Shown here: positions 3,718-25,726 of the stretch, in pieces
Layout of the letters: the number at the start of each line of letters is the position of its first letter
Numbering within the stretch: position 1 is the stretch's first letter
Virus record (IMG/VR): IMGVR_UViG_3300030099_003958
Coordinates: 1-27,314 of that record
Length of the DNA: 27,314 nt
Source of the DNA: a virus
Reading direction: 5' to 3' (one strand)
Program-made: the position numbers and the translations under genes
Notes under the pieces: model-generated
Told to the model about the DNA's origin: nothing
The model's input: only the letters and a program-made list of their open reading frames with translations
Database searches by the model: none

Positions 3718-3719
3718 TA

Positions 3720-4967: not shown

Positions 4968-4981
4968 TTAATTTAATAATT

Positions 4982-6478: not shown

Positions 6479-6487
6479 TATTTATAT

Positions 6488-6538
6488 AAGGTAAAGGGCG
6501 TCAAAAAGCAAATGCTCAAAAAGGCGCCCATATGCCTT
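6488..6538 (+). terminator. RNA hairpin after the major capsid gene
   Basis: GGGCGTC (6496-6502) pairs with GGCGCCC (6523-6529), seven pairs including one G-U. An inner AGC/GCT stem (6507-6509 with 6514-6516) and an outer AAGG/CCTT stem (6488-6491 with 6535-6538) add to it. The GC-rich stem stands out in this AT-rich DNA. There is no strong T-run afterwards, so it may be an attenuator, an mRNA-processing site or a 3' stabiliser rather than a full terminator. The loop flanks repeat CAAAAAG (6502-6508, 6517-6523). Confidence 0.5.
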
Positions 6539-6564
6539 TAACTATTTAATTATATTATATTATG
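6538..6564 (+). promoter_or_regulatory. A/T-only translation leader, copy 2
   Basis: This is the second copy of the 27-base leader found at 3720-3746, with one mismatch, again ending on the start codon. Both copies lie before genes for head components. The block sits immediately after the hairpin, so the ribosome-binding region of the next gene is left single-stranded. Confidence 0.5.
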
Positions 6565-7383: not shown

Positions 7384-7389
7384 CAAGTG

Positions 7390-7431
7390 ATAATAATATA
7401 GGGGTGACATTAGTCACCTCTGTATTATAAT
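7390..7431 (+). terminator. Strong RNA hairpin between head and tail genes
   Basis: Bases 7393-7408 pair with 7413-7428 in an unbroken 16-pair stem (two G-U pairs) around an ATTA loop; two more pairs form beyond one mismatch. The inner part is GGGGTGAC/GTCACCTC. The following bases are TAAAAATATT, not a T-run, so full intrinsic termination is uncertain. A processing or attenuation site is equally possible. It occupies almost all of the 60-base gap before the next gene. Confidence 0.55.
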
Positions 7432-7443
7432 AAAAATATTAAA

Positions 7444-8190: not shown

Positions 8191-9428
8191 TGGAACAAAT
8201 ACTAGAAACAAACGCACAATATTATCAAGGCGCGCAGATATTTAAATCTGCAGGAGCTGCTACAGAGTATAAAACTACTTTTGATACAAATTTAGTTTTT
8301 TTTACATCAGATCCTAATGCTATTGATTATGGTAGAAATAATTTTAAAGTTTATTCTAGTGCTACAGGTATGCCTGGAACTTATGTTGAAGTAGCTGGAT
8401 TACCTGAACCTTATACCGTTGAAAATAATGAAATTAGATTTGCTGGAGGATTACAACCGCCTGCTGGAACTTATGTGGCTGTTCAGTTAAAAAAATTAGA
8501 CGGAGGATTATATGGTCAAACTGAGCAAGAAAAAGCTTTTGGACAAGCAGTAGAAGATAATTATGGAGGTTATCAATATGTAAAATTAATTGATATAGTT
8601 AATAATTTTATGGTTGGCTATGTTGGTGATGGTAAAGTTATACAAACATGTAAAAAATCTGATGTTGTGTTTTTTGCTAAAAGAAGTTTGCAGGAGTTTA
8701 GCTATGATACTTTAAAAAGTATTAAATCTACAGAGCTAACAATACCTGATTCTTTATCTTTAGTAATACCTCAAGACTATGTTAACTATGTTTCATTATC
8801 TTGGATAGACCGTTTAGGAGTTAAACACCCTATTTATCCTGCAAATAACTTAACTATTGATCCTTATTATACAAATATACAAGACAACGCAGGTGTTCCT
8901 ACTCAAGATAATTTTGGTGAAAATATAGAAGGAACTTCAATAACTGAAGAGCGCTGGAAAAAAGCAAATCAAAGACTTATAAATGGAAGTTGGTATGCAG
9001 ATTTTGAATTTTTTGGATATGCAAACCCAGACTTATGGAGTTTAAATGGACCGTGGAACTGGGGTAGATTATATGGTATTGAACCACAAAGAAGTAATTT
9101 TAACGGGTGGTTTGGTATAAATGAAAGAGAAAATAAATTCACTTTTTCAAGTAACTTATTAAATAAATTAATTGTTATAGAATACATATCTGATGGACTT
9201 GCTTATGATTTAGATACTAAAGTACCTAAATTAGCTGAAGAAGCAATGTATAAAAGTATATTATATAATATTGTATCAGTTAGAGCGAATCAACCAGAAG
9301 GAATAGTTCAAAGGTATAAAAAAGATAGATACGCTGCTCTGCGTAATGCTAAAATAAGATTATCTAATATCAAGCTAGAAGAGTTTACTCAAGTAATGCG
9401 TGGTAAATCTAAATGGATAAAACACTAA
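8190..9428 (+). CDS. Neck ring protein with an N-terminal beta-sandwich-like extension
   Basis: A 412-residue protein whose core (about 128-412) carries patterns common to neck ring proteins of crAss-like and marine Bacteroidota phages: KLIDIVNNFMVGYVGDGKVI, QEFSYDTLKSIKSTEL, IPQDYVNYVSLSW, and the ending RNAKIRLSNIKLEEFTQ followed by VMRGKSKWIKH. This core resembles the adaptor that joins portal to tail nozzle. Residues 1-125 are an extra module with alternating strands (FKVYSS, EPYTVENNEIRFAGG, PPAGTYVAVQL) that recalls the N-terminal virion-anchoring domain of T7-type tail fibres. Translation is coupled to the upstream gene by TAATG. The nozzle gene begins six bases after the stop. The core assignment is firm in type; the extension's role is inferred. 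Confidence 0.75.
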   Translation: MEQILETNAQYYQGAQIFKSAGAATEYKTTFDTNLVFFTSDPNAIDYGRNNFKVYSSATGMPGTYVEVAGLPEPYTVENNEIRFAGGLQPPAGTYVAVQLKKLDGGLYGQTEQEKAFGQAVEDNYGGYQYVKLIDIVNNFMVGYVGDGKVIQTCKKSDVVFFAKRSLQEFSYDTLKSIKSTELTIPDSLSLVIPQDYVNYVSLSWIDRLGVKHPIYPANNLTIDPYYTNIQDNAGVPTQDNFGENIEGTSITEERWKKANQRLINGSWYADFEFFGYANPDLWSLNGPWNWGRLYGIEPQRSNFNGWFGINERENKFTFSSNLLNKLIVIEYISDGLAYDLDTKVPKLAEEAMYKSILYNIVSVRANQPEGIVQRYKKDRYAALRNAKIRLSNIKLEEFTQVMRGKSKWIKH

Positions 9429-9434
9429 AATTTA

Positions 9435-12400
9435 ATGGCAAAAATTGTTAATACCTTTGTTAAAGGTAAATTAAATAAAGACCTAGACGCTCGTTTGCTA
9501 CCAAATGGAGAATATAGAGATGCTAGAAATATTCAAGTTAGTAAATCAGAAGGGCCAGATGTAGGTGAACTAGAAAATGTATTAGGTAATGAATTATTGT
9601 TTGATTTTGCTACAGATATTCAGCTTACTAATGTATTTAACAAATGTATTGGTTATTTAGCTGATGAATCTAACAGTAATGTATATTTATTTATAACTAG
9701 TTATACTGATCCTGCACCAGACCAAATAAACTACAATAGAATGGCTGAAAACGCTATTGTGAGGTATAACACGCAGGATCCAATTATTGTAGGTAATAAT
9801 CCTAAAAAACTTGTAGAAGGTAATTTTTTAAATTTTTCTACTACAAACCCTATATATGGCGTTAATTTATTAGAAGGTTTATTATATTGGACTGATAATA
9901 GAAATCAACCAAGAGTAATAAATTTAGATAAAGCTGAATCAGAGGGTTTAACTTATTATACTAGTGAAGATCAAATATCTGTTGCTAAATATAATCCTTG
10001 GCAAGCAATACAATTATTTCAAGAAAGCGCTTTATCTCCAGGTGATTATGAAACAACAATGAAAGACGTAACTAGTTTAGTTTTACCTAATGGTGGAACT
10101 TGTTTAGCTGGTAGTAATGGTGGTGCTGGTTGGAATGGTGCTGCTAATTCTGATGTTACTGATGCGCAAGGTATTTATCCGCCTGTTGGTACAAGAATAT
10201 ATTATGAAGATGCAAACGGTGATATTATTGACACAAATGGAAACGTGGCGCTTGGCTCAACACCTCCTAATACAATTACATCTAGTCCATCACCTAATCC
10301 TGCTGGACCTTTACCAGAAGGTACTAAGTTAGTTTTTAATCCTAATCCTTATTATGATAAAAACTTTGCAGGTGATCCATCTTATTTAGAAGATTTATTT
10401 GTTAGATTTAGCTATAGATATAGATATGAAGATAATGAATATTCTTTAATGGCGCCATTTACTCAAATTGCTTTTATTCCTAAGCAAGATGGTTATTTTT
10501 TATATATAAAACAAGACGCACCTAGATTAAGTATAGATGATCAATCTGATGCTTATAGAAGTACTGTCGTACAATTTGTTGAAAACAAGGTAGATGATAT
10601 AAAATTAATATTTAATTTACCATATACAGGTGATACATTAAGAGATTCTTTAAAAATAAAAGAAATGGAAATACTTTTTAAAGAGTCTGATGGAGTAGCA
10701 ATTAAAATTATAGATACAATAACTATTGATGAAATAGAAAATCAAGCTGGTACTACTTCTGTTTTTACATATGATTATTTATCTAAAAAACCTTTTAAAG
10801 TATTAACAACTGCAGAAAGCACTAGGGTTTCTGATCAAATACCTGTTAGAGCTTTTTCTCAAGAAATTAGTGGTAATAGAGTTATTTATGGTAATTTTCA
10901 AAATAAACATACTCCTCCAAAATTTATAGATTACAATGTTGGTGTTAGTGAGAAAGATCCTTTTAATTTATTAACAGGTACAGCAACAGTTGATGGTGAT
11001 CAAAATAATGTTGCACCTGGTGCTACCATATTTTTAAACGCTGGAAGCTGGACACCTTTTATTCTAGGTTCAGATATATTAGTAGGAAGTGAAGTATATA
11101 ATGCTGCTGGAGATTTATTATTTATTGTTGCAGGTTTAGTAAATCCTAATAATGAAATAACAGCTGATAGAACTGTTTCATTAACAAATGGTGAAGTATT
11201 AACTTTTAGACCTGCAGGAGCAGACACTACAACCACTAGTATTATTGAATATCCTAATTCTACATTAAAACAAAATAGAAATTATCAAGTTGGTATAGTT
11301 TTATCTGATAGATTTGGTAGACAATCATCTGTTATATTATCAGAAAATGATACCATAAGTACTATAGGACAGCAATCTTTTATTGGAGACACAGTATATA
11401 ATGCTTATTTAGATCCAAGTGTAGAGCCAGAGCAATGGCCAGGTGACTCATTAAAAGTTTTATTTAATAGCACTATTGGTCCTTCTTCTTTTAATAGAGC
11501 AACATTAGAACCAGGTTTATATAATGGAGATAGTAATAGTAGTTTTTATAATCCATTAGGTTGGTATTCTTACAAAATTGTAGTTAAACAAACAGAGCAA
11601 GAATATTATAATGTATATTTACCTGGTATTATGGCTGCATATCCAGAAGATTTAATATTAGAAGAAAATGCTACATCGCATACAGTATTAATAAATGATA
11701 ATATAAACAAAGTACCTAGAGATTTAACTGAAGTTGGACCTGATCAAAAACAATATAGAAGCTCTGTTCAATTATTTGGTAGAGTAGAAAATACAGCTAA
11801 TGAATTAACTGTTAATGGTTTTGCAGGTTTACCATTTTTTGACGATGTAGGTGAAGCTAATACACAATATTATCCTGAAATCAAAGCAGATACAGTTTCT
11901 ACTATATCTGTAGTACAAGATTTATTTGATTTTAATCCTATAGATCCACCTAGACCAAACTTTTTTCCACAGTTTTATTTATTAGAATCTAATCCTTCTA
12001 TTGCTAGAATTAGTACTCAAAAGAAAATAGGTCAAGTAGCTAATACAAATTATTCAGCTTCACCACCTCCACCTAATATTCCACATATTGGTAGTGGTAG
12101 AGTTGTAACAGGAGCTACTGTACCCGCGGGTGTTTTAATTCCACTTAACAATATAAATGGAGTACTAGAATTAGATCAAGTAGCATCATCTCCAGGTATT
12201 GCTGATGGTATATTTGTTACAAATGTTAATCCAGCAGTTAATCCAACAGAAATAGCATTAAGCGAAGAAGTAACATTGGTAGCTGATCAATTAATACAAT
12301 TAGCACCTGGTTATCCATCTCCAAATCAAGGAGAATTATATTTACCAGGTATACAGTTTTTAAGTGTATATGAAACATCTCCATTTGTATCTAATTTAGA

Positions 12401-13679
12401 TATATATTGGGAAACAACAAGTAGTGGTTTAATAAGTGATTTAAATAGTTTAATAATAAATTCAACTGAAGGAGCTGCAGGAGTAGATGGAGATAATTTT
12501 AGTGGTTGGGACGAAGGATTAGAACAACCTGCTCTTCCTGGTACACCAAGATTTATTAGTAATACTAGTTTTTTCCCAGTAGATGCTTTTGGTGTGGCTA
12601 TAGACCCAGCTGATATTACAGGTATAGAACTATTATCAGTAACTGATCAAGATAATAATTCAAGAACTAATTATTTTGAACTATTTGGTGCGCCTGCAAA
12701 TCCATTTGGATTACCAGCTAATGCTGCGATTCCAGTAGGAAAGTTTAATATTTCTACTACTCAAGATTATTATGATAATATATATTTTACAGAGGCGCCT
12801 GGTAATGATAGACTTTTCAATTTTTATTTAAAAGTTGTTACTAATGTGTCAGGTGTTGCTACTTTAAATTTTGAATTTATTGCCAAAGGACCTCAAAATG
12901 TTGATCCAAGTTTTACTATATCTCCTGCTACAGCTATAGTTAATACTGACAGACAAGATGCTAGTAATTTATTTACATTTACAGGTGACAACGGAGCAGA
13001 TAATAATAATTTAAATTCATTACCACCTCTTGAATGTAGTATAACTAATATTCAAAAAACTTTTAATGGTGTAGTTACACAAATAAATCAACAAGCTGAA
13101 ATTAACGAAACATTTACTATAAGTGATATAAATGTAACTCCTCCAGATTTAGTTACAGCATTAAGTATAGCAGACTCTTCTATTGATCCAGGTAATTACG
13201 TAGCTACAGTTGTTTATCAAGATGCAGGAGGTAGTTTTTCAGATCAAGTAGCTATTAATTTTGATAGAACACCAACTGTTGCACAATTTTTAACAGATAC
13301 ATATACATGTTACGACAATGATGGTGATGGAACATCTGCTGGTACGATAGTTACTTCAACTGTATTATTAATAGAAATAAGTGGTTCACCTATATCAGCT
13401 CAAAATGGTTCATATTTATATAGAGGTAATTTAAATGCAATAGCTAATGGTACTAATAATGTTATAACTATAAACGCAAATCAAGCTGGTGATCCTAGTG
13501 TTTCTTGCTTAGGTCAATTATTTTATAGTTCTACTCAAACTTTAACACAATTAAGAGATTCATATACTTCAAATGATTGTGTAGCTGGTGGTGGTGATTG
13601 TGGGAGTGATAGCGGTTGGTTTGGTCCTTCAGCTGTAGATATAACTGGTTATACAGTAGAAATAATTGGAACACCTTAA
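9435..13679 (+). CDS. Tail nozzle ('muzzle') protein, N-terminal portion, with Ig-like extension
   Basis: A 1414-residue protein. The start (VKGKLNKDLDARLLPNGEY, then RDARNI) is the typical opening of the large tail stabilisation or nozzle proteins of Bacteroidota phages, functionally like T7 gp12, which caps the short tail with beta-propellers. GLLYWTDNRNQPRVINL (about 155-171) and DLFVRFSYRYRYEDNEYSL (about 318-336) continue that pattern. The middle is beta-rich, with many N, D, T and S residues. From about 1150 it looks like immunoglobulin-type domains. Near the end come a DNDGDG loop (1294-1299), which looks like a calcium-binding loop, and several cysteines (C1292, one in VSCLG and the CVAGGGDCG pair). 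The segment normally expected next is in the following, separate gene. It lies on the particle's outer end and could contact the host. Function by family; extension role unknown. Confidence 0.7.
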   Translation: MAKIVNTFVKGKLNKDLDARLLPNGEYRDARNIQVSKSEGPDVGELENVLGNELLFDFATDIQLTNVFNKCIGYLADESNSNVYLFITSYTDPAPDQINYNRMAENAIVRYNTQDPIIVGNNPKKLVEGNFLNFSTTNPIYGVNLLEGLLYWTDNRNQPRVINLDKAESEGLTYYTSEDQISVAKYNPWQAIQLFQESALSPGDYETTMKDVTSLVLPNGGTCLAGSNGGAGWNGAANSDVTDAQGIYPPVGTRIYYEDANGDIIDTNGNVALGSTPPNTITSSPSPNPAGPLPEGTKLVFNPNPYYDKNFAGDPSYLEDLFVRFSYRYRYEDNEYSLMAPFTQIAFIPKQDGYFLYIKQDAPRLSIDDQSDAYRSTVVQFVENKVDDIKLIFNLPYTGDTLRDSLKIKEMEILFKESDGVAIKIIDTITIDEIENQAGTTSVFTYDYLSKKPFKVLTTAESTRVSDQIPVRAFSQEISGNRVIYGNFQNKHTPPKFIDYNVGVSEKDPFNLLTGTATVDGDQNNVAPGATIFLNAGSWTPFILGSDILVGSEVYNAAGDLLFIVAGLVNPNNEITADRTVSLTNGEVLTFRPAGADTTTTSIIEYPNSTLKQNRNYQVGIVLSDRFGRQSSVILSENDTISTIGQQSFIGDTVYNAYLDPSVEPEQWPGDSLKVLFNSTIGPSSFNRATLEPGLYNGDSNSSFYNPLGWYSYKIVVKQTEQEYYNVYLPGIMAAYPEDLILEENATSHTVLINDNINKVPRDLTEVGPDQKQYRSSVQLFGRVENTANELTVNGFAGLPFFDDVGEANTQYYPEIKADTVSTISVVQDLFDFNPIDPPRPNFFPQFYLLESNPSIARISTQKKIGQVANTNYSASPPPPNIPHIGSGRVVTGATVPAGVLIPLNNINGVLELDQVASSPGIADGIFVTNVNPAVNPTEIALSEEVTLVADQLIQLAPGYPSPNQGELYLPGIQFLSVYETSPFVSNLDIYWETTSSGLISDLNSLIINSTEGAAGVDGDNFSGWDEGLEQPALPGTPRFISNTSFFPVDAFGVAIDPADITGIELLSVTDQDNNSRTNYFELFGAPANPFGLPANAAIPVGKFNISTTQDYYDNIYFTEAPGNDRLFNFYLKVVTNVSGVATLNFEFIAKGPQNVDPSFTISPATAIVNTDRQDASNLFTFTGDNGADNNNLNSLPPLECSITNIQKTFNGVVTQINQQAEINETFTISDINVTPPDLVTALSIADSSIDPGNYVATVVYQDAGGSFSDQVAINFDRTPTVAQFLTDTYTCYDNDGDGTSAGTIVTSTVLLIEISGSPISAQNGSYLYRGNLNAIANGTNNVITINANQAGDPSVSCLGQLFYSSTQTLTQLRDSYTSNDCVAGGGDCGSDSGWFGPSAVDITGYTVEIIGTP

Positions 13680-13713
13680 TTGTAATTAAAGATAAAAATA
13701 AGTAATAATAAAT

Positions 13714-15228
13714 ATGGGAGCTACAGTAGAAGTTAAGTATTTCAATTCCTTTGTGTTAAAAAAGAGTATAGGCATTACACCCGATGATAATCCTAGATGG
13801 TATGGTTCATGGGGTATACCCGCTTCTGTTGCTGGTGGTTTTGACCCTGCATTACCTCCTGCTAAGCCTAATAATTGGGCTATAGAAGAATCTAGAATAC
13901 GAGGTGGTTTTAATAATACCTCTGTAGATTTTGGTGCTAAAGCTTATTTAGTAGAAGAAGAACCTGCTGGTTATGTAAGATTTAATGCTTTAATATATTC
14001 TGGTATATTTAATTCTAGAACCGGTATAAATAACACTAATGTTTTTTCTACAGCAGACGATATTACAAAAGCAACAGATCCAGCAAATGGAAGTATACAA
14101 AAACTTTACGCGGAAGACACTAATTTAAACATATTTCAAGAGTTTAAAGTAAGTAGAGCGCTTATTGATAAAGACGCTATATTTACAGCTGAAGGTAATC
14201 CAGCGGTTACCTCTAGTAATTTAGTTATTGGTGTTATTCAACCTTTAGCTGGAAAATATGGTATATCGCAAAATCCAGAAAGTTTTGCTGTATATGGTAC
14301 GAATAAATATTTTACTGATAAGTTCAATAATGTTGTGATGAGCTTGCGAGGTGGTAGTCTAGTAGAAATATCTCAATTAGGAATGAGAGATTTCTTTAGA
14401 GATCAATTAAATGATTTAGATACTGGTAATATTTTAGGTCAATGTATAGGTGGATGGGATATATACAATCAACAATATGTATTATCTTTACAACCATCTA
14501 GTGCAGCTAAGAGTTCTAATAAAACGTTTAGCACTGTAACCTATGATGAAGGAGTACAAGGTTGGACTAGTTTATTTGATTATGAACCAAGTCAAATTAT
14601 TAGTATACGTAATAAAATGTATACTACCGGAATTAAAACTCAAGGTTTTGGTAATGTTCAAGGTTTATTTGAACATTATTCATTAAATGTTCCACGTGGT
14701 CAATTTTATGGAGAAGATTATAATAGTACTGTTACTGTTATATTTAATCCAGAGCCTACAAGATCAAAAACATTTAGTACTATAAACTATGAAGGTGCTA
14801 ATGGCTGGTTTGTTCAATCAGCAATTTCTGATCAAACAGGTTTAAATCAAAACCCTGTAAGTGGTTTATATTCTAATAGTGTAGACACTACAAATAGTAT
14901 TCTTAGTTATTATGAAGGAGAATATGTAATTAATCCTGCAACTAATTTGCCTGTAGTAAGAGCAGATTATAATTTAGTTTTTGGAACAGATGATCCTCCT
15001 TTGTCAAGAAATTATGCAGGTTTTAATAGAAAAGAAAATTCATATGTAGCCAATGTTATAAATACTACTCCGGCTACAGCGGGTGAAATAGTTTTTGGAA
15101 ATGAAATAAGTGGTATAAAAGGTTATTTTATTGAAACAACTTTTTCAACAGATACAACAACAGATCCTGGAGGTACAAAAATATTATTTTCTGTAGGAGC
15201 AAAATTTGATTCAAATAATGGATATTAA
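13714..15228 (+). CDS. Tail nozzle ('muzzle') protein, C-terminal portion
   Basis: A 504-residue beta-rich protein. Its sequence reads like the C-terminal half of a tail nozzle or stabilisation protein: EVKYFNSFVL and ESRIRGGFNN near the start, LIYSGIFNSRTGINNTNVF, then NPESFAVYGTNKYFTDKFNN and ISQLGMRDFFRDQL (about 190-235), and TVTYDEGVQGWTSLFDYEPSQ (about 272-292). In homologues I recall, these follow the upstream gene's segments in one chain. Here two in-frame stops and a 34-base A-rich gap separate them, and the new ATG is in another frame, so this is a true separate gene rather than a single frameshift. It probably assembles with the 1414-residue product into one nozzle. The final 70 residues may be a small terminal domain. 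Confidence 0.68.
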   Translation: MGATVEVKYFNSFVLKKSIGITPDDNPRWYGSWGIPASVAGGFDPALPPAKPNNWAIEESRIRGGFNNTSVDFGAKAYLVEEEPAGYVRFNALIYSGIFNSRTGINNTNVFSTADDITKATDPANGSIQKLYAEDTNLNIFQEFKVSRALIDKDAIFTAEGNPAVTSSNLVIGVIQPLAGKYGISQNPESFAVYGTNKYFTDKFNNVVMSLRGGSLVEISQLGMRDFFRDQLNDLDTGNILGQCIGGWDIYNQQYVLSLQPSSAAKSSNKTFSTVTYDEGVQGWTSLFDYEPSQIISIRNKMYTTGIKTQGFGNVQGLFEHYSLNVPRGQFYGEDYNSTVTVIFNPEPTRSKTFSTINYEGANGWFVQSAISDQTGLNQNPVSGLYSNSVDTTNSILSYYEGEYVINPATNLPVVRADYNLVFGTDDPPLSRNYAGFNRKENSYVANVINTTPATAGEIVFGNEISGIKGYFIETTFSTDTTTDPGGTKILFSVGAKFDSNNGY

Positions 15229-15243
15229 TAAAAATTTAAATAA

Positions 15244-15903
15244 ATGGCAGCAGGTGCAATTATAGGTGGCGCAGTTAGTGTCATAGGTGGTATTTTCGGT
15301 TCTAGTAGAGCTAGAAGAGAAGCAAGACGTAGAGAAAATCAAGCTAGAGCTTTAGAATCTAAACTAAATGAATTAGAAGCTAATAGACAAGAGATTATTG
15401 ATCCTTATGCTAATATAACTGATTTAAGCTCAATGCTTTCAAATCCGTTTGCAAATTTGTCTGTAGCAACTAAAGCTACTGAAATACAAATGGAGCAAAC
15501 TGATATTGCTTTAGCTAACACACTAGATACTATTAGAGCTACAGGTGGTAGTGCTGGTGGAGCAACGGCTTTAGCACAAGCTGCGTTGCAAGCTAAAAAA
15601 GGAGTTGCTGCTAATATTGAAGCTCAAGAAGCAGCTAACGAAAAACAAAGAGCTCAAGGTGAGGCCACGCTGATACAACAACGTATGTCTGAAGCTCAAA
15701 GACAACAACAGGCAGATGTTTCTGGCGCACAATTTGTATTTCAACAACAAGAAGCAAGAGACATGCAACAACTTAATAGATTATCTAATCAAATCGGCGC
15801 ATTACGTGGTGCTGCAGCACAAGCTAACGCAGACGCAACAGCTGCATTAACTGGTGGTATTGGAGCTGCCGCTTCCTTTTTAGGTAATTTAGGAGGAGAA
15901 TAA
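15244..15903 (+). CDS. Small internal virion (ejection) protein, T7 gp14-like
   Basis: A 219-residue, cysteine-free protein. It begins with a glycine/alanine/isoleucine segment (AGAIIGGAVSVIGGIFG, residues 3-19), then a basic patch (RARREARRR) and a long coiled coil rich in Q, A and E (about 30-190). It ends with another small-residue segment (GGIGAAASFLGNLGG). This layout, and its place right after the tail nozzle genes and before a giant protein, matches the small ejected protein of podoviruses, which enters the host outer membrane and helps form a channel for DNA. Family membership is judged from layout, not alignment. The gene starts 15 bases after the nozzle gene. A scaffold-like or tail-plug role cannot be excluded. 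Confidence 0.6.
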   Translation: MAAGAIIGGAVSVIGGIFGSSRARREARRRENQARALESKLNELEANRQEIIDPYANITDLSSMLSNPFANLSVATKATEIQMEQTDIALANTLDTIRATGGSAGGATALAQAALQAKKGVAANIEAQEAANEKQRAQGEATLIQQRMSEAQRQQQADVSGAQFVFQQQEARDMQQLNRLSNQIGALRGAAAQANADATAALTGGIGAAASFLGNLGGE

Positions 15904-15913
15904 TAGTAAAAAC

Positions 15914-17017
15914 ATGGAAGATAAAAATATAAAAATTAATTTATTTATTAAGCAGCTTAACAAAAGCAATGCGCTTGGCTATAATAAAACATATGTAGCT
16001 AGTAAGCATAATTATAATTTTAAATTATTAGATAGAGCTTATGAAAATACTGGTAAATTATATGCTAAGTTAAAAACTATTATACAAAATAATACTTGTC
16101 AAGATCCTACTTGTTTTGTAGAAAACCAACAATTAAAAAGATTAATGGAAGCTCCTCAAAAATCATTAGATTTTTTAACAAACATTGGGTCTCAATTAAT
16201 TATTACTGATGATAATTATTATGATGTTAATCAAGATTATAAATATGCTGTAGCTAACGCTATACTTACTGGTAAACCAACTTTTGCTAAAAGTGATGGT
16301 TATAATGTAGAGTTATATTTAAACGAAGATGGTAGTCAAACTATAGTATTTAAAGGACCTTTATTAGAAGATCCTTTTGTTATTAACAGCTCTGCTTTAG
16401 AAACATTACTAGATTCAGGAACAGGTATAATAGCTGAAACTCCTGACATTAACAATGACATGCTAAGATTATTAGGCGAAGTTGGTGTTTTAGCAGGTGG
16501 TTCAACTAATCCTGAAACAGGTCAATTAACGCCAAAAGCAAAAATAGCAGATGAGTTTGTTTTAAAAAACCCAGACGGATCTTATGATTATGAAATAATA
16601 GATATTGGTAATGGTAAAGGTAGAAATATACTTAAATTTGATCTAGATAAAATTGAAAGAAAAGTAACACCATTTATAAACGCAGAAGTTGCAGGTATGT
16701 TAAGCTCAGAACAATCAGTTGTAGCAGCGTGGAATGTATTTATTGGTGCGCAAACTAGTGTATCTGAAGATGATCAAATGGCGCAAAATGCTAACGCAGG
16801 TTTTGTAGCTTGGGATTATCAAGAAGATTTACCACTACAACAAGATAAAAAAGATTTATTTATGGTAAAATACAAAGAGTATTTTATGAACAACTATTTA
16901 AAACAGTTTACTAGAAATCAAATACCTACCGTAAAAGCTGATGCAGTTGTATTTGACTTAGAAGAAGGAAAAAGAAAACAAGCTCAAGACATTTTAAAAG
17001 ATAATCCACGTAAATAA
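15914..17017 (+). CDS. Probable virion protein of unknown function
   Basis: A 367-residue protein I do not recognise. Residues 1-115 are helical and basic to neutral, with a paired-cysteine spacing C62-x4-C67. Residues 125-230 are beta-rich with turns (NEDGSQTIVFKGP, LKNPDGSYDYEIIDIGNGKG). From 245 to the end it is helical again, closing with a charged segment. No signal peptide or membrane span is seen. It sits between the gp14-like gene (10-base gap) and the giant gene (6-base gap), the position held by the middle ejection protein in T7-like order, so an ejected or cargo protein is plausible. An AGGAGG at 15891-15896 is 17 bases from the ATG, too far to be its ribosome site. Confidence 0.5.
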   Translation: MEDKNIKINLFIKQLNKSNALGYNKTYVASKHNYNFKLLDRAYENTGKLYAKLKTIIQNNTCQDPTCFVENQQLKRLMEAPQKSLDFLTNIGSQLIITDDNYYDVNQDYKYAVANAILTGKPTFAKSDGYNVELYLNEDGSQTIVFKGPLLEDPFVINSSALETLLDSGTGIIAETPDINNDMLRLLGEVGVLAGGSTNPETGQLTPKAKIADEFVLKNPDGSYDYEIIDIGNGKGRNILKFDLDKIERKVTPFINAEVAGMLSSEQSVVAAWNVFIGAQTSVSEDDQMAQNANAGFVAWDYQEDLPLQQDKKDLFMVKYKEYFMNNYLKQFTRNQIPTVKADAVVFDLEEGKRKQAQDILKDNPRK

Positions 17018-17023
17018 AATTAA

Positions 17024-20000
17024 ATGACAGACGAAGAATTTTTAATGTCTTTACCACAAGATCTTCTTAGAGATGAAAAAATAAGAAGACTTGAAGAGTA
17101 CAGGCAAGAAAATCCTCAACCTGAAGTTGAAGAAGAAACTGTAGAAGAAGAGACTGTAGAAGAACCAACAGAAGAACCTAATGTTGACTTATTAAATTAT
17201 CAGTTTCAAAGAACTGATCTAGTACCAAGTTTATTTGGTGAACCAGCAGGGACACCACCTCAATCAACTATTCAATATGATAGTGATGGTGCTATAAGCA
17301 TTAATTCTAATAATATATTTAATACTGATTATAGTAATTTAACATTAAGCGACATTAATACAATGATACAGCCTCAACAGCAAAATCAAGAGTATTTAGA
17401 AGCTATTGAAAAATTAAGTGTAATTGCTAAACCTGAAGAAGTTATTAAAGAAAGAGGTTATGAATATAAATATGAAATAACTGATGATGGTAAGTTAATG
17501 TATTATACTAGAAAAGAAGGTTCTGAAGATTTTACACCAATACAAAGCGGTGACAAATACTATGAAGAAATAGGTGGTAGAGTATTTAAGCATTTTGATT
17601 TTCCTGAAGATCAATATAATCAAGCAAATAAAACTTTAAAAGTAGCAAAAAATCTATCTACTAGTATGTATAATCAGCTAGAAAGTTATGCTAATGATAT
17701 TACAGGCGCAACTGAAACTGAAGTTCCTGAAGAATTTATAGAAATAGCTGAGCAGTTTGAAAATGAAGTTGCAATAAATGAAGATGATAGAAGGCAAATA
17801 AATGAAGATGCAATGAGTTTTGTTTTAAATAATTCTAAAATAGACGAAACAAAACAAGGTGTTAATGTATTAGCTAAAGGTGGTAGCTCTGGTGTTTATG
17901 AATATAAAACTGGTAAAAAAATAGATAATCCTCAGTGGACAGAATTAAATGAAGCCGCAATAAGTCAATATGCTAAAGAAAACAAAATACACGCAGATGA
18001 TGTTGATTTAAGCGATCCACAAGTGGAAAAAGAAATTTTTGATATAATGGCTGCTAACAAAGCTATAGAGTTAACAGACAAGCGTCAAAAAAGAAAAATG
18101 ACTGATTTTATTGAAAGTCAACCTAGTGGATTTAGTTGGAATAAATTTGGTACTTGGCTTTATAGCGAACTAGCTATGCCAGGTGATTTACTGGACGCAG
18201 AAGATGTTTGGTCTGTTAATGATGTTCAAAAAAACATGGAGGCTTTGCAAAAATGGAAACAAACAAATGTAAGTCAACAGTCTAAAGATATAGGTAGTTT
18301 TATTAAAAAATCAGAAAACTATTTAATATTATTACAAGATACCGCTGAAAAAATACAAAACGGAAAATATACAACTAGCGCTCAATTAGCAGCAGCAAAT
18401 AAAGAGTTAAAAAATATTAACCAGTTGAGAAATCAAACATTTGATTTAATGCGTACCAAGTACGATGAATTAGCTGTTAATATGGAAAAATCAAAAGATA
18501 TAGCCGCTGATATAAATCTGTTAGAAAGAAACTTTAATATTATACCCTTAATAACTAATAACATAGAAAATTCTACTATAGATGCGTTACAAGGTATAGA
18601 AGAAATAGTTTTTCAAGCTGTTAATTTACCTAATAATTTATCGCCTGATGCTAAACAAGCTTTCCAGTTATTTAATCCAGCTTGGTCTATTATGAATAAT
18701 TTAGGTATTATTGGTAATTGGGGTGATTATAGAAAAGATTATAATAAAAGAATAGACGCGTATCAACAAGGTATGATGAGTGGTATTGCTGAAATGGGAT
18801 CATTAGATGATATTGAAAACATGGATGATTTTGGAAGATACTACGCCTCTATGCTTGGGTCTGTACTTCCTCAAGCAGCTGTAATGATTGGTACAGGAGG
18901 ATATGGATTAGGTGCTGTAGTTTTAAGTTCCGGTGGTAGCAAATGGAAAGAAATGGATGCCGAAATGAAAGCTAGTCAAGATGCTCACAAGCTATGGGAA
19001 CAAAGAAAACCAAAAAAAGGTAAGTTAGAAAGTGAAGAAGATTATAAAAAAAGAGTAGCTGCTTGGAACGACACAGAACCCGCGGTAATAGATTATAATA
19101 TGGTTCAAATGTGGGGTGGAGCTCTTACTAACATGGCTATTGAAGGAACTGCTGGATATTTTATAAGTTTACCTCTTTCTCAAGGAAAATCTTTTATGAA
19201 ACCTTTACTTGATAGAGTTAAAGCTTTTAACTCACCAGCTGTAAAAAATGGATTTACTAAACAATTTACTAATATACTTAAACCTACAGGTGACATACTT
19301 ATTGAAGGTGGAGAAGAAGGTTTAGTTGGTATTGGTAATAATGTTTATGATAGAATTTTTTTAGGTAAAGATGTTAATATATTTGAAGGATTTAAAGATA
19401 ATGTAGCGGGTGGTATTATAGGTGGTAAAATATTTCAAGCACCTGGACTTCTTAAACCTTATTTAAATATGTCGCAAACACCTGGTGATGTTTCTAATAT
19501 TACAGGTTATCAAAATCAAATTAAAAGTATAGCTAATAGCATTACTCAAAACCCTATGATGTCAGCTAATACTAAAAATATATTAAACGATAAAATAGCT
19601 GACTTAACTTTAAACATAAATAATAGTGTTGTAAACTCTTTAAACAGGTATACTCAAATGCCTGTAGAAACAATATCTCAATTAGGTAATATTGAACAGA
19701 GCATGTTTAGAGTGGATCAACAAATTGAGCAAGTTCAAAATGATGAAGGTATACAGGTTGGTAAAGATCAATTATTAGAAGATTTAAATAATCAAAAAAA
19801 TAATCTAACCGGAGAAAAAAATAGAATATTAGAACCTTATGTAGATGTAGATGCTGAAGGTCAAGTAGTTGGTGGTGGTAATTTAATAGCTCCTATATCA
19901 AAGAAAATTGATACTGGTGCTGAGGTAATTGCTGATCAATTAGGTGTAGGAATTGAATCAGTAGATAATACAGCTGATTTTATTGGTAGTGTAGAAACTA

Positions 20001-23000
20001 TAGAGCAATCAGGTGGTCAAGTAATAAATTTAGAAAGAGATGCTAATGGTGATATACTACCTGCAGAAGATCAAGCATACGGCTTTATTACTAGAATACC
20101 TAATGATGATGGTACTTTTGAAACTCAAATTATAATAAACAATGCTTCTAATGAAGCAGATGGTGTAGTAACAACTAAGCAACACGAGGTTTTACATGCT
20201 GCTTTAATGAAAGTTGACCCAGAAGTTAAATCTAAAATGGGTAGAGACCTATTAAATTATTTAGAAAGTAGCAATGTAGAAATGAGTGATAGGCTTAAGT
20301 CAAGGATCGAGCAATACCAAAATGATCCTAATGTTGATGAGTCTACGTTAATGGAAGAAATTATGACATTAACTAGTGAAGGTCTTACTAATGGTGATAT
20401 AACAATAAATCAACCAACTGGTTTACAAAATATTATACAAAAAGTATTGCGAACATTTGGCATTAACAAATCTTTTTCAGAAGGCGAAGGTGTGCTAAAC
20501 TTTATAAAAGACTTTAATGCAGACATATTAAAAGGCGAAGGTTTAACTCAACAAACTCAAGATCAAGTAGATATGGGTCTTGAAACAGAAGTTGATTTAG
20601 GTGTTGTACAAAGTAGAAAACTACCCGAAGCAACTGAGGTTTACATGGATGTAGATAATAATACGCTGCAGCAAGGTTTAAACAATGCAATACAAAACCA
20701 AACAGATCAACAGTTTCCAATAGCTCAAGCAATTGTAGAAAAAAACTGGCCATTAATAAGTAAATCATTAAATATTAATAACGAAGCAGAAATGAACGCT
20801 GCTAAAGAAGTTGTTATTGATCAAGTATTAGGACAGTTTGAAGGATCTGGCCAAGGTAAATATGGTCCTAGAAATACTAGTGCATTATCTGGTTTTTCAT
20901 TAGAAGGTGGAGCACAAGTAAGTACATATTTAGCTGAAACAATAAGAACTAGAAAACCTGAAATAGATGCAGCTATAGTTGATAGAACTGGTGGTCCAGG
21001 TATACAAGCTGATCAAGTAGGTGATGTAGCTGTAGAAACTGAAGTAGCAGAAGTTGCAACAACTAGACGTACACCTAGTCAAACAACTACATATTCCGAT
21101 GCTCTTTTAACTAACGCAAATACAGATAAAGCAGGATTAGAAACTAATATAACAGAAGCTATAACAACAGCTTATGATGGTAGAACTGATGTTACTCTTG
21201 CTGAAACTAGAAATATACCTCAAGAAGTTGCTGAAGTATACGCTACAACTTTTGGATTAAACCCAGAAACCATTGTTGATAAAAGAAGAAATTTTTCTAA
21301 AAAAGATGCTGATGGATTAAATGCTGCTAAAAGATTTTTATTATCTAATGCACAAGCTGATTTTAACAGATTACCAGAAACTGTAGACGCTAGTGGTAAA
21401 GGTACTTTTATTCCTAAAAACGTAAGAGATGCTTTATATACTGACGGTAAACTTACAGGTACATTATCAGATTATCAAGATTTAATTAGAACTCAACCTG
21501 AAAAACCTATTTATAGAGATAGAGTTGGTCAAACAATTAGAGGTTTATTAAATACTCATATTAGAAATAGAATATTAGAAACGGCTAATCCTGATTCTGC
21601 TTCAAGAATAGCAAGTGGTGCTAAATTTAGTGCAAAACCAAAAACAAAAACAAAACCAAAAGAAGCTAAAAAACCAAAAGTAGTTACTGTTAAAGAAATA
21701 CAAAGTCTAGAAAGAAAAGGAGCAGAGTCTTTGCAACCTGAAGTAAAAAAAGGTACAATAGTAATTTCAGAAAAAGAAGGTAGAAAAACTAGTCGTAGTT
21801 ATATACCTAAGTTGGACGAAGTATTTAATAAAGATACAGGTGAAACTGTTGAGCAAGCTAGAAATAGAGTAGCTAATAACTTTTTAGATAGATTTCCTAA
21901 ATGGAAAAATTTACTAGGTAAAAGCATGCAAGGCGGTTTAACAGGTGGTTTATTTTTAACAAAACCCGTTTATAATGACGCTACTAAAAATGTACCTAAA
22001 GCTAGACAAGTAGATGTAAGTCAAGTTGCAATTAATAAGACAGGTTCTAAATTAAATCCTAAAAGTTTAGAAAATATTGGAACTAAAGAGTTTAAAGACG
22101 AACAATTAGAAAATATAGATACTTATGTTGATTATTGGAAAGACGTATCAGAGTATTTACAAGATAATAAAAAAGATTCTTGGTTTTTTGGAGTTCAAGC
22201 TATTGATTCGCAAAGTATAACAGCAGGTCCTTTTAGAAAAGCTGCTATATACGGTTTTTATAATATAAATAATCAAACAGGAAAACCAGATTTTAAAACT
22301 AAAATAAAAGTAGAACATAGTAAACCAAATTCATCAACTACAGATCCTTTCTATGAAGCGTCTCAAAAAGGACCAGAGTATGTAGAAGCTTTAAGACCTA
22401 TTATTAAAGCAAGTTATATGCAAGGAGCAGTAAAAGATGATGGCATTTATTCTGATGACACTAAATTAGATAACGCTGGTTTTAAAAGTGTTATGCCTGA
22501 AGTTTATTATACTGATATAATACCTGCTATTTTAGATGGTAAACTAGATTATTTAATAGATAAATATCCTGGTATAGTTTCTGTAGTAAGAATGGCTGAA
22601 GCTGGTATTAATTTAAATGATTATAAATCTACTTTTGATGGTAAAACAATACCTGAAATATTTGGTGTAGAAGTAGATCCACAGTTTAGAAACGATCCAA
22701 ATGTAATTAAAGCACAAAATACAGCTATAGTTAATACTTTAAAAGTTGATCAAAAAACTGCTAAAACTGATGTAATAAAACCATTTAAAGAATATATAGA
22801 AAATATAGCTGAAAGCAAAACTAACGCAACAGATAAATCACTTGTAGATTCAGGTCCTGAAGTGTTTAATCCTGAAAGAACAGCTGAAGAAATGAAAACT
22901 ACTGCTATAAACTCTCTACAAACTAGAGTTTTAGCTAGCAAGAAAACACCTAAGCCAAAAGGTATAAGTATATTTGATTTTGATGATACTTTAGCTAATA

Positions 23001-25726
23001 CAAAAGAAAAAGTTATAGTTAAAATGCCTGATGGTAAAACAAAAGAAATAAGTGCTTCTGAGTTTGCTAGAGAAGCTGGTAATCTTACTGAAGCTGGCGC
23101 TACTTTTGATTTTAGTAATTTTGAAAACGTAGCTAAAGATACAGCTGAAGGACCACTAGCTGATCTTGCTAGAAAGCGTCAAGGTAAATTTGGTAGCGGT
23201 GATATATTTGTTTTAACAGCTAGACCAAATTCTGCAGGTCCAGCTATACAACAATTTTTAAAAAGCATTGGTATAGATATACCTTTATCAAATATAACTG
23301 GTTTAGCCGATGGATCACCGCAAGCTAAAGTAGATTTTGTATTAAATAAAACAGCTGAAGGATATAATGATTTTTATTTTGCTGATGATTCATTTGCAAA
23401 CGTTAAAGCTGTTAGTGAAATATTAGATGCTATTGATGTAAAAAACACAGTAGAACAAGCTCAAAGTAAAGAAGTTAGATTAAATAATGAGTTTAATAAA
23501 CAAATAGAAGAAGTTACAGGTAAAGAATCATTTAAAAAATATTCTGATACAAGAGCTAGACTAGAAGGAAAGAAAAAAGACGGTGGTTGGATTAAAAGAT
23601 TTGTTAGACAGTTTACTATAACACCATCTGCTGATGATTTTATGGGGCTTTTATATGCTATGGCAGGAAAAGGTGAACAAGGAAATAAGCATTTAAAATT
23701 TTTAAAAGATAATTTAATTGATCCTTATAATAAAGCAGAGCTTGAGTTATTAACTGCTAAGGTAAATGTTGGTAGAGACTTTGCTGCTTTGAGATCTAAG
23801 TTTCCATCACTAAAAGGTAGTACGCTTAGTTTAACTAATCCGTTGTTAAAAGAAATAGATGGTGGACCATTTAACAAAGAACAAGCGGTAAGAGTTTATT
23901 TGTGGAGCAAGCAAGGTATAGAAATACCTGGCATGTCTAAAAGAGATGTAAACGCATTAGTAAAAGCTGTAGAAGCAGATAATGAGTTACAAACTTTTGC
24001 GAACGAACTTGAATCAATGCAGAGAACGCCTCAATATCCACCTCCAGGAAAAAACTGGTTAGGTGGTAGTATTAAGTCAGACATATTAGAAAGCATGGAT
24101 AAATCATTTAGAGCTGATCTTATGTCTGAATTTAATGAAAATGTAGATATTATATTTAGTCCAGAAAATTTAAATAAAATTGAAGCTATATATGGTTCTA
24201 AATATAGACAAGCATTAGAAGATTCTATACGTAGAATGAAGTCTGGAAACAATAGACCTAAAATTACTGGTAGTGGTTCTGGTTTAGTAAATGAAATGTT
24301 AGACTGGTTAAATGCTTCTGTAGCAAACGTAATGTTCTTAAACATGCGATCTGGATTACTACAGACTTTATCTACGGTAAATTTTATAAATTGGGGTGAT
24401 AATAATATAGTAAACGCTAGTAAAGCTTTTGCTAGCAAAGAAATGTGGCCGACGTTTATGAAATTAATGAACTCTGATTATTTAGTTAATAGACGTGATG
24501 GATTAAAAATAAATGTTAATGAAGCAGAACTTGCTGATGCCGCTAAAAAAGGTGGTATAAAAGGTGCTTTTAGTTACATACTAGATAAAGGTTTTGCAAT
24601 AACAAGAGTTATGGATAGTTTTGCTATTGCTCTTGGTGGTTCTACATTTTTTATTAATCGTAAAAAAGCTTTGTTAAATAGAGTAAATGAAAAAACAGGT
24701 AAGTTATATACCGAAGCTGAAGCTGATCAAAAAGCATTTGAAGATTTTTATGAAGTAGCTGAAGAAACACAACAATCAAGTAATCCTAGTAAAATATCAT
24801 CTCAACAAGCCAGTATTGCCGGGCGTTTATTGTTATCGTTTCAAAACGTTACAATGCAGTTTAATAGAAAAACTAAAAAATCTATACAAGATCTGTATAA
24901 TAGACGTAAAAAGCCTGGTATGACACAACGTGAAAGTGATATGAGTAATTTATCTAGTGTTGTTTATTATGTAGGTATGCAAAATTTAATGTTTAACGCA
25001 TTGCAACAAGGAATATTTGCGTTAATGTTTGATGACGAAGAAGAAGAAGAGCAAAATCTAACTAAACAAGAAAGATTTGCTAATGTTTTAAATGGAATGG
25101 CCGACTCATTATTGTTTGGACTTGGTTTCGGTGGCGCAATAGTATCTACAACAAAAAATATACTTATGCGTATAGCTGATGAAACTACTAAAAAGAAACC
25201 AGACTATAGAGATATACCTGATGATGTATTTGATGTTAGCTCTGTTGTTGATGCTAAATTTAGAAAACTTAAATCAGCGGCTAAAACTTTTACTTTTAAT
25301 AGAAAAGAAATAAGAGAAAGAGGTTGGAGTATAGATAACCCAGCTTATTTAGCTATAGCTCAAATAATATCAGCTGGTTTTAATGTTCCAGTTGATAGAG
25401 TATTACAAAAAGTAAATAATTTAAGACAAGCTTCTGACGAATCAGTTAGAACATGGCAAAGAGTAGCTTTAGTAATGGGTTGGAACGGTTGGAACTTTGG
25501 TTTACCATATTGGGGAAGACAAAGTACTATCGATAAAGAAAACAAAAATGCAGAAAAAGTAAAAGAAAATTACGAAAAGCAAGTTAAAGAAATAAAAAGT
25601 AAAGGATTTACTAAAAAAATCCCATTATCAGGACCAAATCATTATAAGCCAAAGGGTAAATTAGGTGTTGATTATGTACAAGTAGAAAGACCCAGCGGCG
25701 AAATTCAATATTATATAAAACCATGA
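17024..25726 (+). CDS. Giant 2900-residue internal virion / polyvalent-like protein
   Basis: One frame encodes 2900 residues, a third of the window. Order of parts: acidic repeat (34-52, VEEETVEE type); helical and coiled-coil region (about 200-560); glycine-rich hydrophobic segments at 608-636 and 693-718 and VAGGIIGG at 794-801; an HExxH metallopeptidase-like domain (H1054, E1055, H1058; candidate third ligand E1111 or E1112); a lysine/proline linker near 1537-1553; an unassigned region; a HAD phosphatase-like domain (D1985, D1987, T2065, K2102, D2121/D2122); and a helical C-terminal region with two more hydrophobic stretches near 2645-2668 and 2691-2714, resembling the LPD38-type domain of large polyvalent proteins. 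I find no cysteine anywhere. Size and position fit the largest ejected podovirus protein. It may open the envelope and deliver enzymes with the DNA. No lysozyme, transglycosylase or RNA-polymerase motif was recognised. It overlaps the next gene by ATGA. Confidence 0.72.
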   Translation: MTDEEFLMSLPQDLLRDEKIRRLEEYRQENPQPEVEEETVEEETVEEPTEEPNVDLLNYQFQRTDLVPSLFGEPAGTPPQSTIQYDSDGAISINSNNIFNTDYSNLTLSDINTMIQPQQQNQEYLEAIEKLSVIAKPEEVIKERGYEYKYEITDDGKLMYYTRKEGSEDFTPIQSGDKYYEEIGGRVFKHFDFPEDQYNQANKTLKVAKNLSTSMYNQLESYANDITGATETEVPEEFIEIAEQFENEVAINEDDRRQINEDAMSFVLNNSKIDETKQGVNVLAKGGSSGVYEYKTGKKIDNPQWTELNEAAISQYAKENKIHADDVDLSDPQVEKEIFDIMAANKAIELTDKRQKRKMTDFIESQPSGFSWNKFGTWLYSELAMPGDLLDAEDVWSVNDVQKNMEALQKWKQTNVSQQSKDIGSFIKKSENYLILLQDTAEKIQNGKYTTSAQLAAANKELKNINQLRNQTFDLMRTKYDELAVNMEKSKDIAADINLLERNFNIIPLITNNIENSTIDALQGIEEIVFQAVNLPNNLSPDAKQAFQLFNPAWSIMNNLGIIGNWGDYRKDYNKRIDAYQQGMMSGIAEMGSLDDIENMDDFGRYYASMLGSVLPQAAVMIGTGGYGLGAVVLSSGGSKWKEMDAEMKASQDAHKLWEQRKPKKGKLESEEDYKKRVAAWNDTEPAVIDYNMVQMWGGALTNMAIEGTAGYFISLPLSQGKSFMKPLLDRVKAFNSPAVKNGFTKQFTNILKPTGDILIEGGEEGLVGIGNNVYDRIFLGKDVNIFEGFKDNVAGGIIGGKIFQAPGLLKPYLNMSQTPGDVSNITGYQNQIKSIANSITQNPMMSANTKNILNDKIADLTLNINNSVVNSLNRYTQMPVETISQLGNIEQSMFRVDQQIEQVQNDEGIQVGKDQLLEDLNNQKNNLTGEKNRILEPYVDVDAEGQVVGGGNLIAPISKKIDTGAEVIADQLGVGIESVDNTADFIGSVETIEQSGGQVINLERDANGDILPAEDQAYGFITRIPNDDGTFETQIIINNASNEADGVVTTKQHEVLHAALMKVDPEVKSKMGRDLLNYLESSNVEMSDRLKSRIEQYQNDPNVDESTLMEEIMTLTSEGLTNGDITINQPTGLQNIIQKVLRTFGINKSFSEGEGVLNFIKDFNADILKGEGLTQQTQDQVDMGLETEVDLGVVQSRKLPEATEVYMDVDNNTLQQGLNNAIQNQTDQQFPIAQAIVEKNWPLISKSLNINNEAEMNAAKEVVIDQVLGQFEGSGQGKYGPRNTSALSGFSLEGGAQVSTYLAETIRTRKPEIDAAIVDRTGGPGIQADQVGDVAVETEVAEVATTRRTPSQTTTYSDALLTNANTDKAGLETNITEAITTAYDGRTDVTLAETRNIPQEVAEVYATTFGLNPETIVDKRRNFSKKDADGLNAAKRFLLSNAQADFNRLPETVDASGKGTFIPKNVRDALYTDGKLTGTLSDYQDLIRTQPEKPIYRDRVGQTIRGLLNTHIRNRILETANPDSASRIASGAKFSAKPKTKTKPKEAKKPKVVTVKEIQSLERKGAESLQPEVKKGTIVISEKEGRKTSRSYIPKLDEVFNKDTGETVEQARNRVANNFLDRFPKWKNLLGKSMQGGLTGGLFLTKPVYNDATKNVPKARQVDVSQVAINKTGSKLNPKSLENIGTKEFKDEQLENIDTYVDYWKDVSEYLQDNKKDSWFFGVQAIDSQSITAGPFRKAAIYGFYNINNQTGKPDFKTKIKVEHSKPNSSTTDPFYEASQKGPEYVEALRPIIKASYMQGAVKDDGIYSDDTKLDNAGFKSVMPEVYYTDIIPAILDGKLDYLIDKYPGIVSVVRMAEAGINLNDYKSTFDGKTIPEIFGVEVDPQFRNDPNVIKAQNTAIVNTLKVDQKTAKTDVIKPFKEYIENIAESKTNATDKSLVDSGPEVFNPERTAEEMKTTAINSLQTRVLASKKTPKPKGISIFDFDDTLANTKEKVIVKMPDGKTKEISASEFAREAGNLTEAGATFDFSNFENVAKDTAEGPLADLARKRQGKFGSGDIFVLTARPNSAGPAIQQFLKSIGIDIPLSNITGLADGSPQAKVDFVLNKTAEGYNDFYFADDSFANVKAVSEILDAIDVKNTVEQAQSKEVRLNNEFNKQIEEVTGKESFKKYSDTRARLEGKKKDGGWIKRFVRQFTITPSADDFMGLLYAMAGKGEQGNKHLKFLKDNLIDPYNKAELELLTAKVNVGRDFAALRSKFPSLKGSTLSLTNPLLKEIDGGPFNKEQAVRVYLWSKQGIEIPGMSKRDVNALVKAVEADNELQTFANELESMQRTPQYPPPGKNWLGGSIKSDILESMDKSFRADLMSEFNENVDIIFSPENLNKIEAIYGSKYRQALEDSIRRMKSGNNRPKITGSGSGLVNEMLDWLNASVANVMFLNMRSGLLQTLSTVNFINWGDNNIVNASKAFASKEMWPTFMKLMNSDYLVNRRDGLKINVNEAELADAAKKGGIKGAFSYILDKGFAITRVMDSFAIALGGSTFFINRKKALLNRVNEKTGKLYTEAEADQKAFEDFYEVAEETQQSSNPSKISSQQASIAGRLLLSFQNVTMQFNRKTKKSIQDLYNRRKKPGMTQRESDMSNLSSVVYYVGMQNLMFNALQQGIFALMFDDEEEEEQNLTKQERFANVLNGMADSLLFGLGFGGAIVSTTKNILMRIADETTKKKPDYRDIPDDVFDVSSVVDAKFRKLKSAAKTFTFNRKEIRERGWSIDNPAYLAIAQIISAGFNVPVDRVLQKVNNLRQASDESVRTWQRVALVMGWNGWNFGLPYWGRQSTIDKENKNAEKVKENYEKQVKEIKSKGFTKKIPLSGPNHYKPKGKLGVDYVQVERPSGEIQYYIKP
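17123..17179 (+). repeat. Acidic tandem repeat near the start of the giant gene
   Basis: A roughly 15-base unit (GAAGAAACTGTAGAA type) is repeated about three times imperfectly, encoding VEEETVEEETVEEPTEEP. Short in-frame repeats of this kind change copy number easily. The product is a negatively charged, probably disordered tether after a short helical N-terminus. Confidence 0.6.
19976..20398 (+). other. HExxH metallopeptidase-like domain within the giant protein
   Basis: Residues about 985-1125. The core is KQHEVLHAALMKVDPEVK: H1054 and H1058 would bind zinc and E1055 would be the catalytic base. Before it comes a strand-like IIINN, as expected ahead of an active-site helix. A downstream helix with LMEEIMTLTSEG offers E1111 or E1112 as third ligand, a gluzincin-like arrangement. 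Related HExxH domains occur in phage polyvalent proteins. Possible roles are self-processing, scaffold cleavage or cutting a host protein after ejection. Confidence 0.55.
22955..23473 (+). other. HAD-superfamily phosphatase-like domain within the giant protein
   Basis: Residues about 1978-2150. All four HAD motifs are present: I, FDFDDTLA (nucleophile D1985, acid D1987); II, VLTARP (T2065); III, K2102 in PQAKVDF; IV, FADDS (D2121, D2122). The roughly 75 residues between motifs I and II include a short strand pair (KVIVKMPDGKTKEIS), a small cap. Stand-alone phage HAD proteins with this cap style exist, acting for example on phosphorylated nucleotides or RNA ends. The substrate here is unknown. 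Confidence 0.75.
24326..25243 (+). other. Helical LPD38-like region of the giant protein
   Basis: Residues about 2435-2740. Patterns such as NFINWGDNNIVNASKAF, NRRDGLKINVNE, FEDFYEVAEETQQSSNPSKIS and GRLLLSFQNVTMQF recall the C-terminal region of very large proteins in marine phages, matching my memory of the LPD38-type polyvalent-protein domain. Two hydrophobic helices (near 2645-2668 and 2691-2714) are separated by an FDDEEEEEQN acidic stretch, so this part could insert into a membrane. The domain name is tentative. Confidence 0.4.

Follow-up and report, generated by a model that had tools for sequence, protein, structure and literature searches.

A HAD phosphatase domain in an apparent exchange slot of a probable virion giant protein

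What is a phosphatase domain doing inside a giant and probably virion-borne phage protein? The question is raised by the full 27,314-nt stretch of IMG/VR record IMGVR_UViG_3300030099_003958, referred to here as the window, in which an ORF on the plus strand (17024..25726, +) encodes 2,900 amino acids with zero internal stops, including a segment that resembles a HAD phosphatase. A sequence-only reading of the window had proposed that this segment is an intact HAD domain within a probable virion protein, that it is delivered with the first DNA, and that it could act on RNA ends, nucleotide signals or protein marks. These proposals were followed up by homology searches, structure prediction and comparison of gene order.

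Position of the giant protein in the virion module

The giant ORF is the last large gene of a virion module, whose upstream part (1..17017, +) was assigned using PHROGs and relatives of its proteins. Matches to PHROGs identified the terminase large subunit (1-1323, +), the portal (1324-3717, +) and a major-capsid-type structural protein (4982-6478, +) together with other structural genes. Two further ORFs of the window (9435-13679 and 13714-15228) each match a different part of phrog_14478, which is one virion protein family, and this suggests that a protein of this type is split in the window phage. For the terminase, the portal and the capsid-type protein, the nearest relatives are those of Manatee Spring podovirus MW202828, the Flavobacterium elemo phages, the Cellulophaga phages phi38:1 and Calle, and the Maribacter phage Panino. 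The phage is of podovirus type and most likely infects marine Bacteroidota. Relatives are also present at nine loci of marine MAGs (L082-L090), in bins labelled Woesearchaeota, Ilumatobacteraceae, Aliivibrio and others; since the labels are mixed and the loci are probably phage contigs that were placed in these bins, no host was inferred from them.

Gene order is conserved between the window and the cultured relatives, and the giant takes the place of elemoE gp18, phi38:1 gp101 and phi18:3 gp123. Of these proteins, elemoE gp18 is annotated as a structural protein, phi38:1 gp101 is structural by similarity, and the record of phi18:3 gp123 describes a virion structural protein with an “annotation based on experimental MS/MS proteomics analysis”. 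A tblastn search of 50,697 phage records with the whole giant gave zero matches, and relatives were obtained from IMG/VR; homology to the cultured giants was detected at the level of individual blocks. An N-terminal-half block (residues 600-900; 18821..19723, +), which is shared with giants of cultured Bacteroidota phages, matches those of elemoE (gp18), phi38:1 (gp101), Panino and Calle_1 with 23-25 bits, where the best decoy scores 11 bits, and residues 900-1200 match elemoE gp18 (residues 1459-1664) with 32 bits, as against 6 bits for the next best. The N-terminal half of the giant is thus directly homologous to phi38:1 gp101 and elemoE gp18, and is linked to the MS/MS-annotated phi18:3 gp123 through phi38:1 gp101 as an intermediate (blastp, 77 bits between the two Cellulophaga phage proteins), a chain that is weak in bits. 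A hydrophobic, Gly-rich stretch was found by hydropathy at residues 614-634. The conserved block at residues 900-1200 contains the HExxH motif HEVLH (residues 1054-1058; 20183..20197, +) of a candidate zincin metallopeptidase, a region for which no Pfam peptidase match was obtained; a Pfam search of 16 whole giants likewise returned no useful domain.

Homology and synteny together make a virion location likely, and the giant is probably packaged. The enzymatic part of the packaged giant would then enter the cell with the DNA, possibly after cleavage by the giant's own HExxH domain, a step that we consider somewhat more probable than not. An improbable alternative is that the giant, synthesized late, remains in the cell that made it and serves there in assembly or self-processing, for instance, in which case the HAD domain would never be delivered. 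This possibility draws on the fact that the relative with MS/MS evidence has neither the HAD domain nor the C-terminal module of the window giant (residues 2165-2850; 23516..25573, +), neither of which was found in the giants of phi38:1, phi18:3, elemoE, Panino or Calle_1; it is opposed by the position of the gene as the last of the virion module, by a gene order shared with proteins that carry structural annotations, in one case from MS/MS, and by an architecture that is typical of packaged polyvalent proteins.

A divergent HAD domain with conserved catalytic residues

The HAD phosphatase domain occupies residues 1978-2150 (22955..23473, +), where it forms the content of a slot directly upstream of the C-terminal module, and is identified by its homologues and by its fold model. 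All four motifs are intact, with the catalytic residues exactly where the sequence-only reading had placed them: motif I (FDFDDTLAN) with the nucleophile D1985 and the acid/base D1987 (22976..22984, +), motif II (VLTARP) with T2065 (23216..23218, +), motif III (QAKVDF) with K2102 (23327..23329, +), and motif IV (YFADDS) with D2121 and D2122 (23384..23389, +). Relatives of the domain are encoded in 555 IMG/VR stretches, and when the best 80 of these 555 relatives are aligned with the window, none of the six catalytic residues varies (81/81 sequences); the same holds for 80/80 sequences of a second sample that was collected with a divergent bait. In an extended set they are intact in 93/95 sequences, the exceptions being L397, where the contig is cut within the domain, and L347, which has a decayed remnant. 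Overall, the catalytic residues are invariant in ~170 homologues down to ~55% identity, and loss of the motif IV aspartates, which would have spoken against an enzyme had it been frequent, was seen in the decayed remnant only. This remnant, at residues 1698-1777 of the L347 protein, retains the sequence GYNDFNF. Every HAD homologue that was examined lies inside a giant; in L043 and L067 the HAD-bearing ORF is only ~1,100 amino acids long, the giant being split by a frameshift, an assembly error or a real gene splitting.

Family searches with single sequences gave weak signals. Pfam HAD_2 matched the whole window giant with E=0.04, and tblastn with the HAD domain alone against the 50,697 phage records gave a chance-level match only. 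Across the domain and its relatives, the best matches were 6e-5 for DUF2608, 3e-4 for TIGR01681 (HAD-IIIC) and 1e-6 for phrog_415, the best phage family by profile, which is named “polynucleotide kinase” and was matched by 32/36 members; a DNA-3′-phosphatase model was weakly matched by 6/36. No solved HAD structure in the PDB was matched in a sequence-profile search, which indicates that the domain is a divergent HAD. Because single-sequence searches are weak, the assignment was made from the homologues and the fold.

An AlphaFold2 model built from 36 sequences (mean pLDDT 78; ~90 over the C-terminal half of the core) shows the Rossmann-like core of a HAD protein with a flap after strand 1. 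The flap is a beta-hairpin that follows motif I (residues ~1997-2009; 23012..23050, +), as defined by the secondary structure of the model and by the alignment, and the insert between motifs I and II is small, with no full cap. Foldseek searches of the PDB returned mostly HAD phosphatases among the best folds, with E values of 3e-3 to 4e-2 and probabilities of 0.97-0.99 for the top ones; the matches include Ceg4, MDP-1, BT2542, Lem4 and bacterial Pnkp1. In a viral library, large proteins (giants) from uncultured viruses gave the best matches, and the hits also included polynucleotide kinase/phosphatases. The presence of a HAD domain is thereby confirmed and is not a chance resemblance, and its invariant catalytic residues argue for activity.

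The same fold matches bear on what the enzyme would act upon. In HAD enzymes an open active site usually goes with a macromolecular substrate, and the top PDB folds for the domain alone include capless or small-cap protein or phosphotyrosine phosphatases, namely MDP-1 and two bacterial effector HADs. These matches count against a nucleic-acid substrate and for a delivered protein phosphatase that would reset phosphotyrosine, phosphoserine or aspartyl-phosphate marks on host proteins. We regard such an enzyme as unlikely, although it is the most probable of the alternatives considered: an ART-like candidate found at the same place in sister giants would also modify proteins, whereas the phage family nearest in sequence bears the name polynucleotide kinase, not protein phosphatase, and the partner that is nested in some HAD domains (see below) is a kinase of the small-substrate or nucleic-acid type rather than a protein kinase.

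An apparent exchange slot upstream of the C-terminal module

The distribution of the domain was determined with the terminase as a HAD-independent bait, and records with enough downstream sequence were counted. The HAD domain was found in 9/9 records close to the window, in 0/10 of the MW202828-like set and in 5/11 elemo-baited records, one of the five being a decayed remnant; IMG/VR records are partial genomes, so that absences are provisional. The C-terminal module lies immediately behind the HAD domain, and a second survey started from this side of the border, with the C-terminal module of a HAD-less giant as bait. Of the 35 module-bearing giants obtained, 4 contain HAD, 12 have a P-loop kinase there instead, and the other 19 contain neither. 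An ART-like candidate (YAGAP...GVNFFAT...EYARMN) occupies the slot in two of these 19 giants (protein positions 1296-1445 in both L379 and L386) and has no Pfam match above the cut-off. Across the relatives, the slot thus holds HAD, a zeta/PNK-type P-loop kinase, a kinase nested in the HAD flap, the ART-like candidate, other domains or nothing.

A tree of the C-terminal module alone (84 rows, among them 13 with the kinase and 17 with neither; quick method, some long branches) requires at least 11 changes of slot content. One case is a pair of sisters, L366 with HAD and L392 without it, whose giants are 79% identical before the slot and 91% identical after it, and in which the domain is either wholly there or cleanly missing. 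The proposal that HAD is required for virion assembly was rejected on account of this HAD-less sister. The interchangeability of the domain in the slot and its clean absence from the sister giant argue that it is dispensable and an accessory cargo rather than a structural part, and the position before the conserved C-terminal module looks like an exchange site for enzyme cargo. We therefore consider it very improbable that the HAD domain is a structural or binding module that is no longer an enzyme. Its embedding in a probable virion protein and the L347 remnant without motif IV aspartates would fit such a role; the invariance of six residues in ~170 homologues to ~55% identity, together with the absence from a close sister, shows that the domain is neither generally decayed nor needed for assembly.

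A short motif, [KR][FY]S (often KFSK), was observed at the edges of the exchanged domain, as at protein positions 1248 and 1442 of L366, 1417 and 1441 of L392, 1905 and 2105 of L355, and 1294 and 1446 of L379. It is present at the 3′ border of the slot in 107/204 giants, as against ~3-4% expected per 40 amino acids, an excess that is partly due to common descent; across whole giants its enrichment is modest and concentrated at this border. The motif may serve as a linker or be a site of processing, or it may be the trace of recombination.

In L348 the kinase is inserted within the HAD domain, between motif I and the remainder, and five further contigs show the same arrangement; in a model of the L348 unit, the kinase exits from and re-enters the HAD domain at the flap hairpin. 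A copy of the kinase that stands alone in the slot matches Pfam Zeta_toxin (1e-14) and AAA_33 (7e-14) about equally, which counts against a strictly nucleic-acid role, and its best folds in Foldseek are epsilon/zeta toxin and the bacterial and T4 polynucleotide kinases. That the kinase passes the Pfam cut-off for Zeta_toxin, with epsilon/zeta structures as best folds, favors a small-molecule HAD acting on nucleotides, nucleotide signals or sugar phosphates, in which case the zeta-like sister kinase would phosphorylate UDP-N-acetylglucosamine and the enzymes in the slot would be directed at signal nucleotides or at precursors of the envelope. Fusions of zeta-toxin-like kinases to MuF proteins of phages have been described, with cell-wall weakening suggested as their effect (PMC5512222), and the proposed action of such kinases on cell-wall precursors counts against nucleic-acid ends as substrate. 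This alternative is judged to be still less likely than a protein phosphatase: the insert that the model shows between motifs I and II is small and falls short of a full cap, and a nested kinase and phosphatase that shared one small substrate would undo each other's work.

Nucleic-acid ends as possible substrate and comparison with known systems

The explanation that we favor, at slightly less than an even chance, is that the domain is a catalytically competent HAD phosphatase, an exchangeable cargo of a polyvalent-type giant, which is delivered and acts on nucleic-acid ends. For the substrate itself, removal of a terminal phosphate (3′-phosphate, PNKP-like) is our best guess and is put forward tentatively; it is suggested by the name of phrog_415, the weak DNA-3′-phosphatase model matches, the nested PNK/zeta-type kinase and the Pnkp1-like folds. 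The HAD enzyme would strip terminal phosphates from nucleic-acid ends and would thereby clean up the damaged ends that host nucleases leave on tRNA or on the phage genome as it enters; where a kinase is nested, phosphorylation of 5′-OH ends would be added by the same HAD-kinase unit.

Searches for partner enzymes gave a mixed result. A small ATP-dependent DNA ligase (~285 amino acids), which favors this explanation, is encoded in 8/20 related records (G004, G005, G006, G009, G010, G015, G045 and G046). Counting against it, RNA ligase PF09414 was not found in the 20 related partial records, and no separate partner enzymes were detected: a separate AAA_33 kinase was present in 0/15 HAD-only records and a separate phrog_415-type phosphatase in 0/8 kinase-only records, from which it follows that the two activities do not always occur together. 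A search for RNA ligase PF09511 gave no signal in its controls and carries no weight here. The idea that HAD phages carry a stand-alone kinase, and kinase phages a stand-alone phosphatase, is unsupported by these counts. Separate phrog_415-like proteins were observed in phi38:1 (gp014; KC821614 8448-9377), where the gene adjoins replication genes, and in a phage with the nested unit (G041 56344-56793). The RNA-end substrate proposed in the sequence-only reading thus gains from the adjacent or nested zeta/PNK-type kinase of relatives and from the phrog_415 name, and loses from the missing PF09414 ligase and separate AAA_33 kinase.

Were the phosphatase delivered, it would be at work ahead of all phage gene expression, at the time of greatest exposure of the entering genome. 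That the contents of a fixed slot are swapped among close relatives suggests a cargo on which selection keeps changing, as would be expected for enzymes of counter-defence or host takeover, and an anti-defence role of the HAD domain is plausible. The wider picture is more doubtful: in a widespread lineage of marine phages, a single fixed site of the virion giant would be the slot for delivered enzymes, and HAD or HAD-kinase would be a pre-made end-healing enzyme for nucleic acids that arrives with the genome. The slot supplies specific candidates for virion-delivered enzymes in phages that abound in marine viromes, among them, in the kinase nested in HAD, an unusual candidate bifunctional enzyme.

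Among known systems, T4-type Pnkp and bacterial Pnkp1 share with these giants the fold classes of a HAD phosphatase and a P-loop kinase, which in some relatives are likewise joined in one polypeptide. PNKP is defined by a 3′-phosphatase HAD and a 5′-kinase in one protein; the window giant contains the HAD domain only, and the nested kinase is present in some relatives only. The domains of T4 Pnkp are arranged in tandem, whereas in at least six contigs the kinase is inserted in the HAD flap, and unlike T4-type Pnkp, most giants carry one of the two enzymes and all of these enzymes are parts of giants. The RNA-repair HADs of jumbo phages occur in PNK-fused or stand-alone forms (PMC7824862), and the phrog_415 phosphatases, the best phage family by profile (E ~1e-6), are stand-alone proteins of ~218 amino acids, whereas the HAD domain described here always lies within a giant. 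Phage T4 Alt and the ejection proteins of podoviruses offer a parallel as a virion-borne enzyme and large internal proteins delivered at infection, as the giant would be; their activity differs from that of a HAD, and the likeness is drawn without a sequence relation.

The closest counterparts are the polyvalent proteins (Iyer et al., 2017; PMC5512222), and nothing closer to a virion HAD cargo was found in the open-access papers searched, nor was a description of a fixed slot before a C-terminal module or of a kinase nested in a HAD flap. Like the window giant, polyvalent proteins are large, multidomain and encoded with virion genes; a metallopeptidase domain is common in them, if not universal, and the HExxH region of the window giant is a candidate for it. 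Their exchangeable effector domains are matched by the zeta-toxin-like kinase and the ART-like candidate of the sister giants, and HAD or phosphatase domains are unmentioned in the main text of that paper. In most of its features the giant fits the published class of polyvalent proteins, to which its HAD content and apparent fixed slot seem to be new additions.
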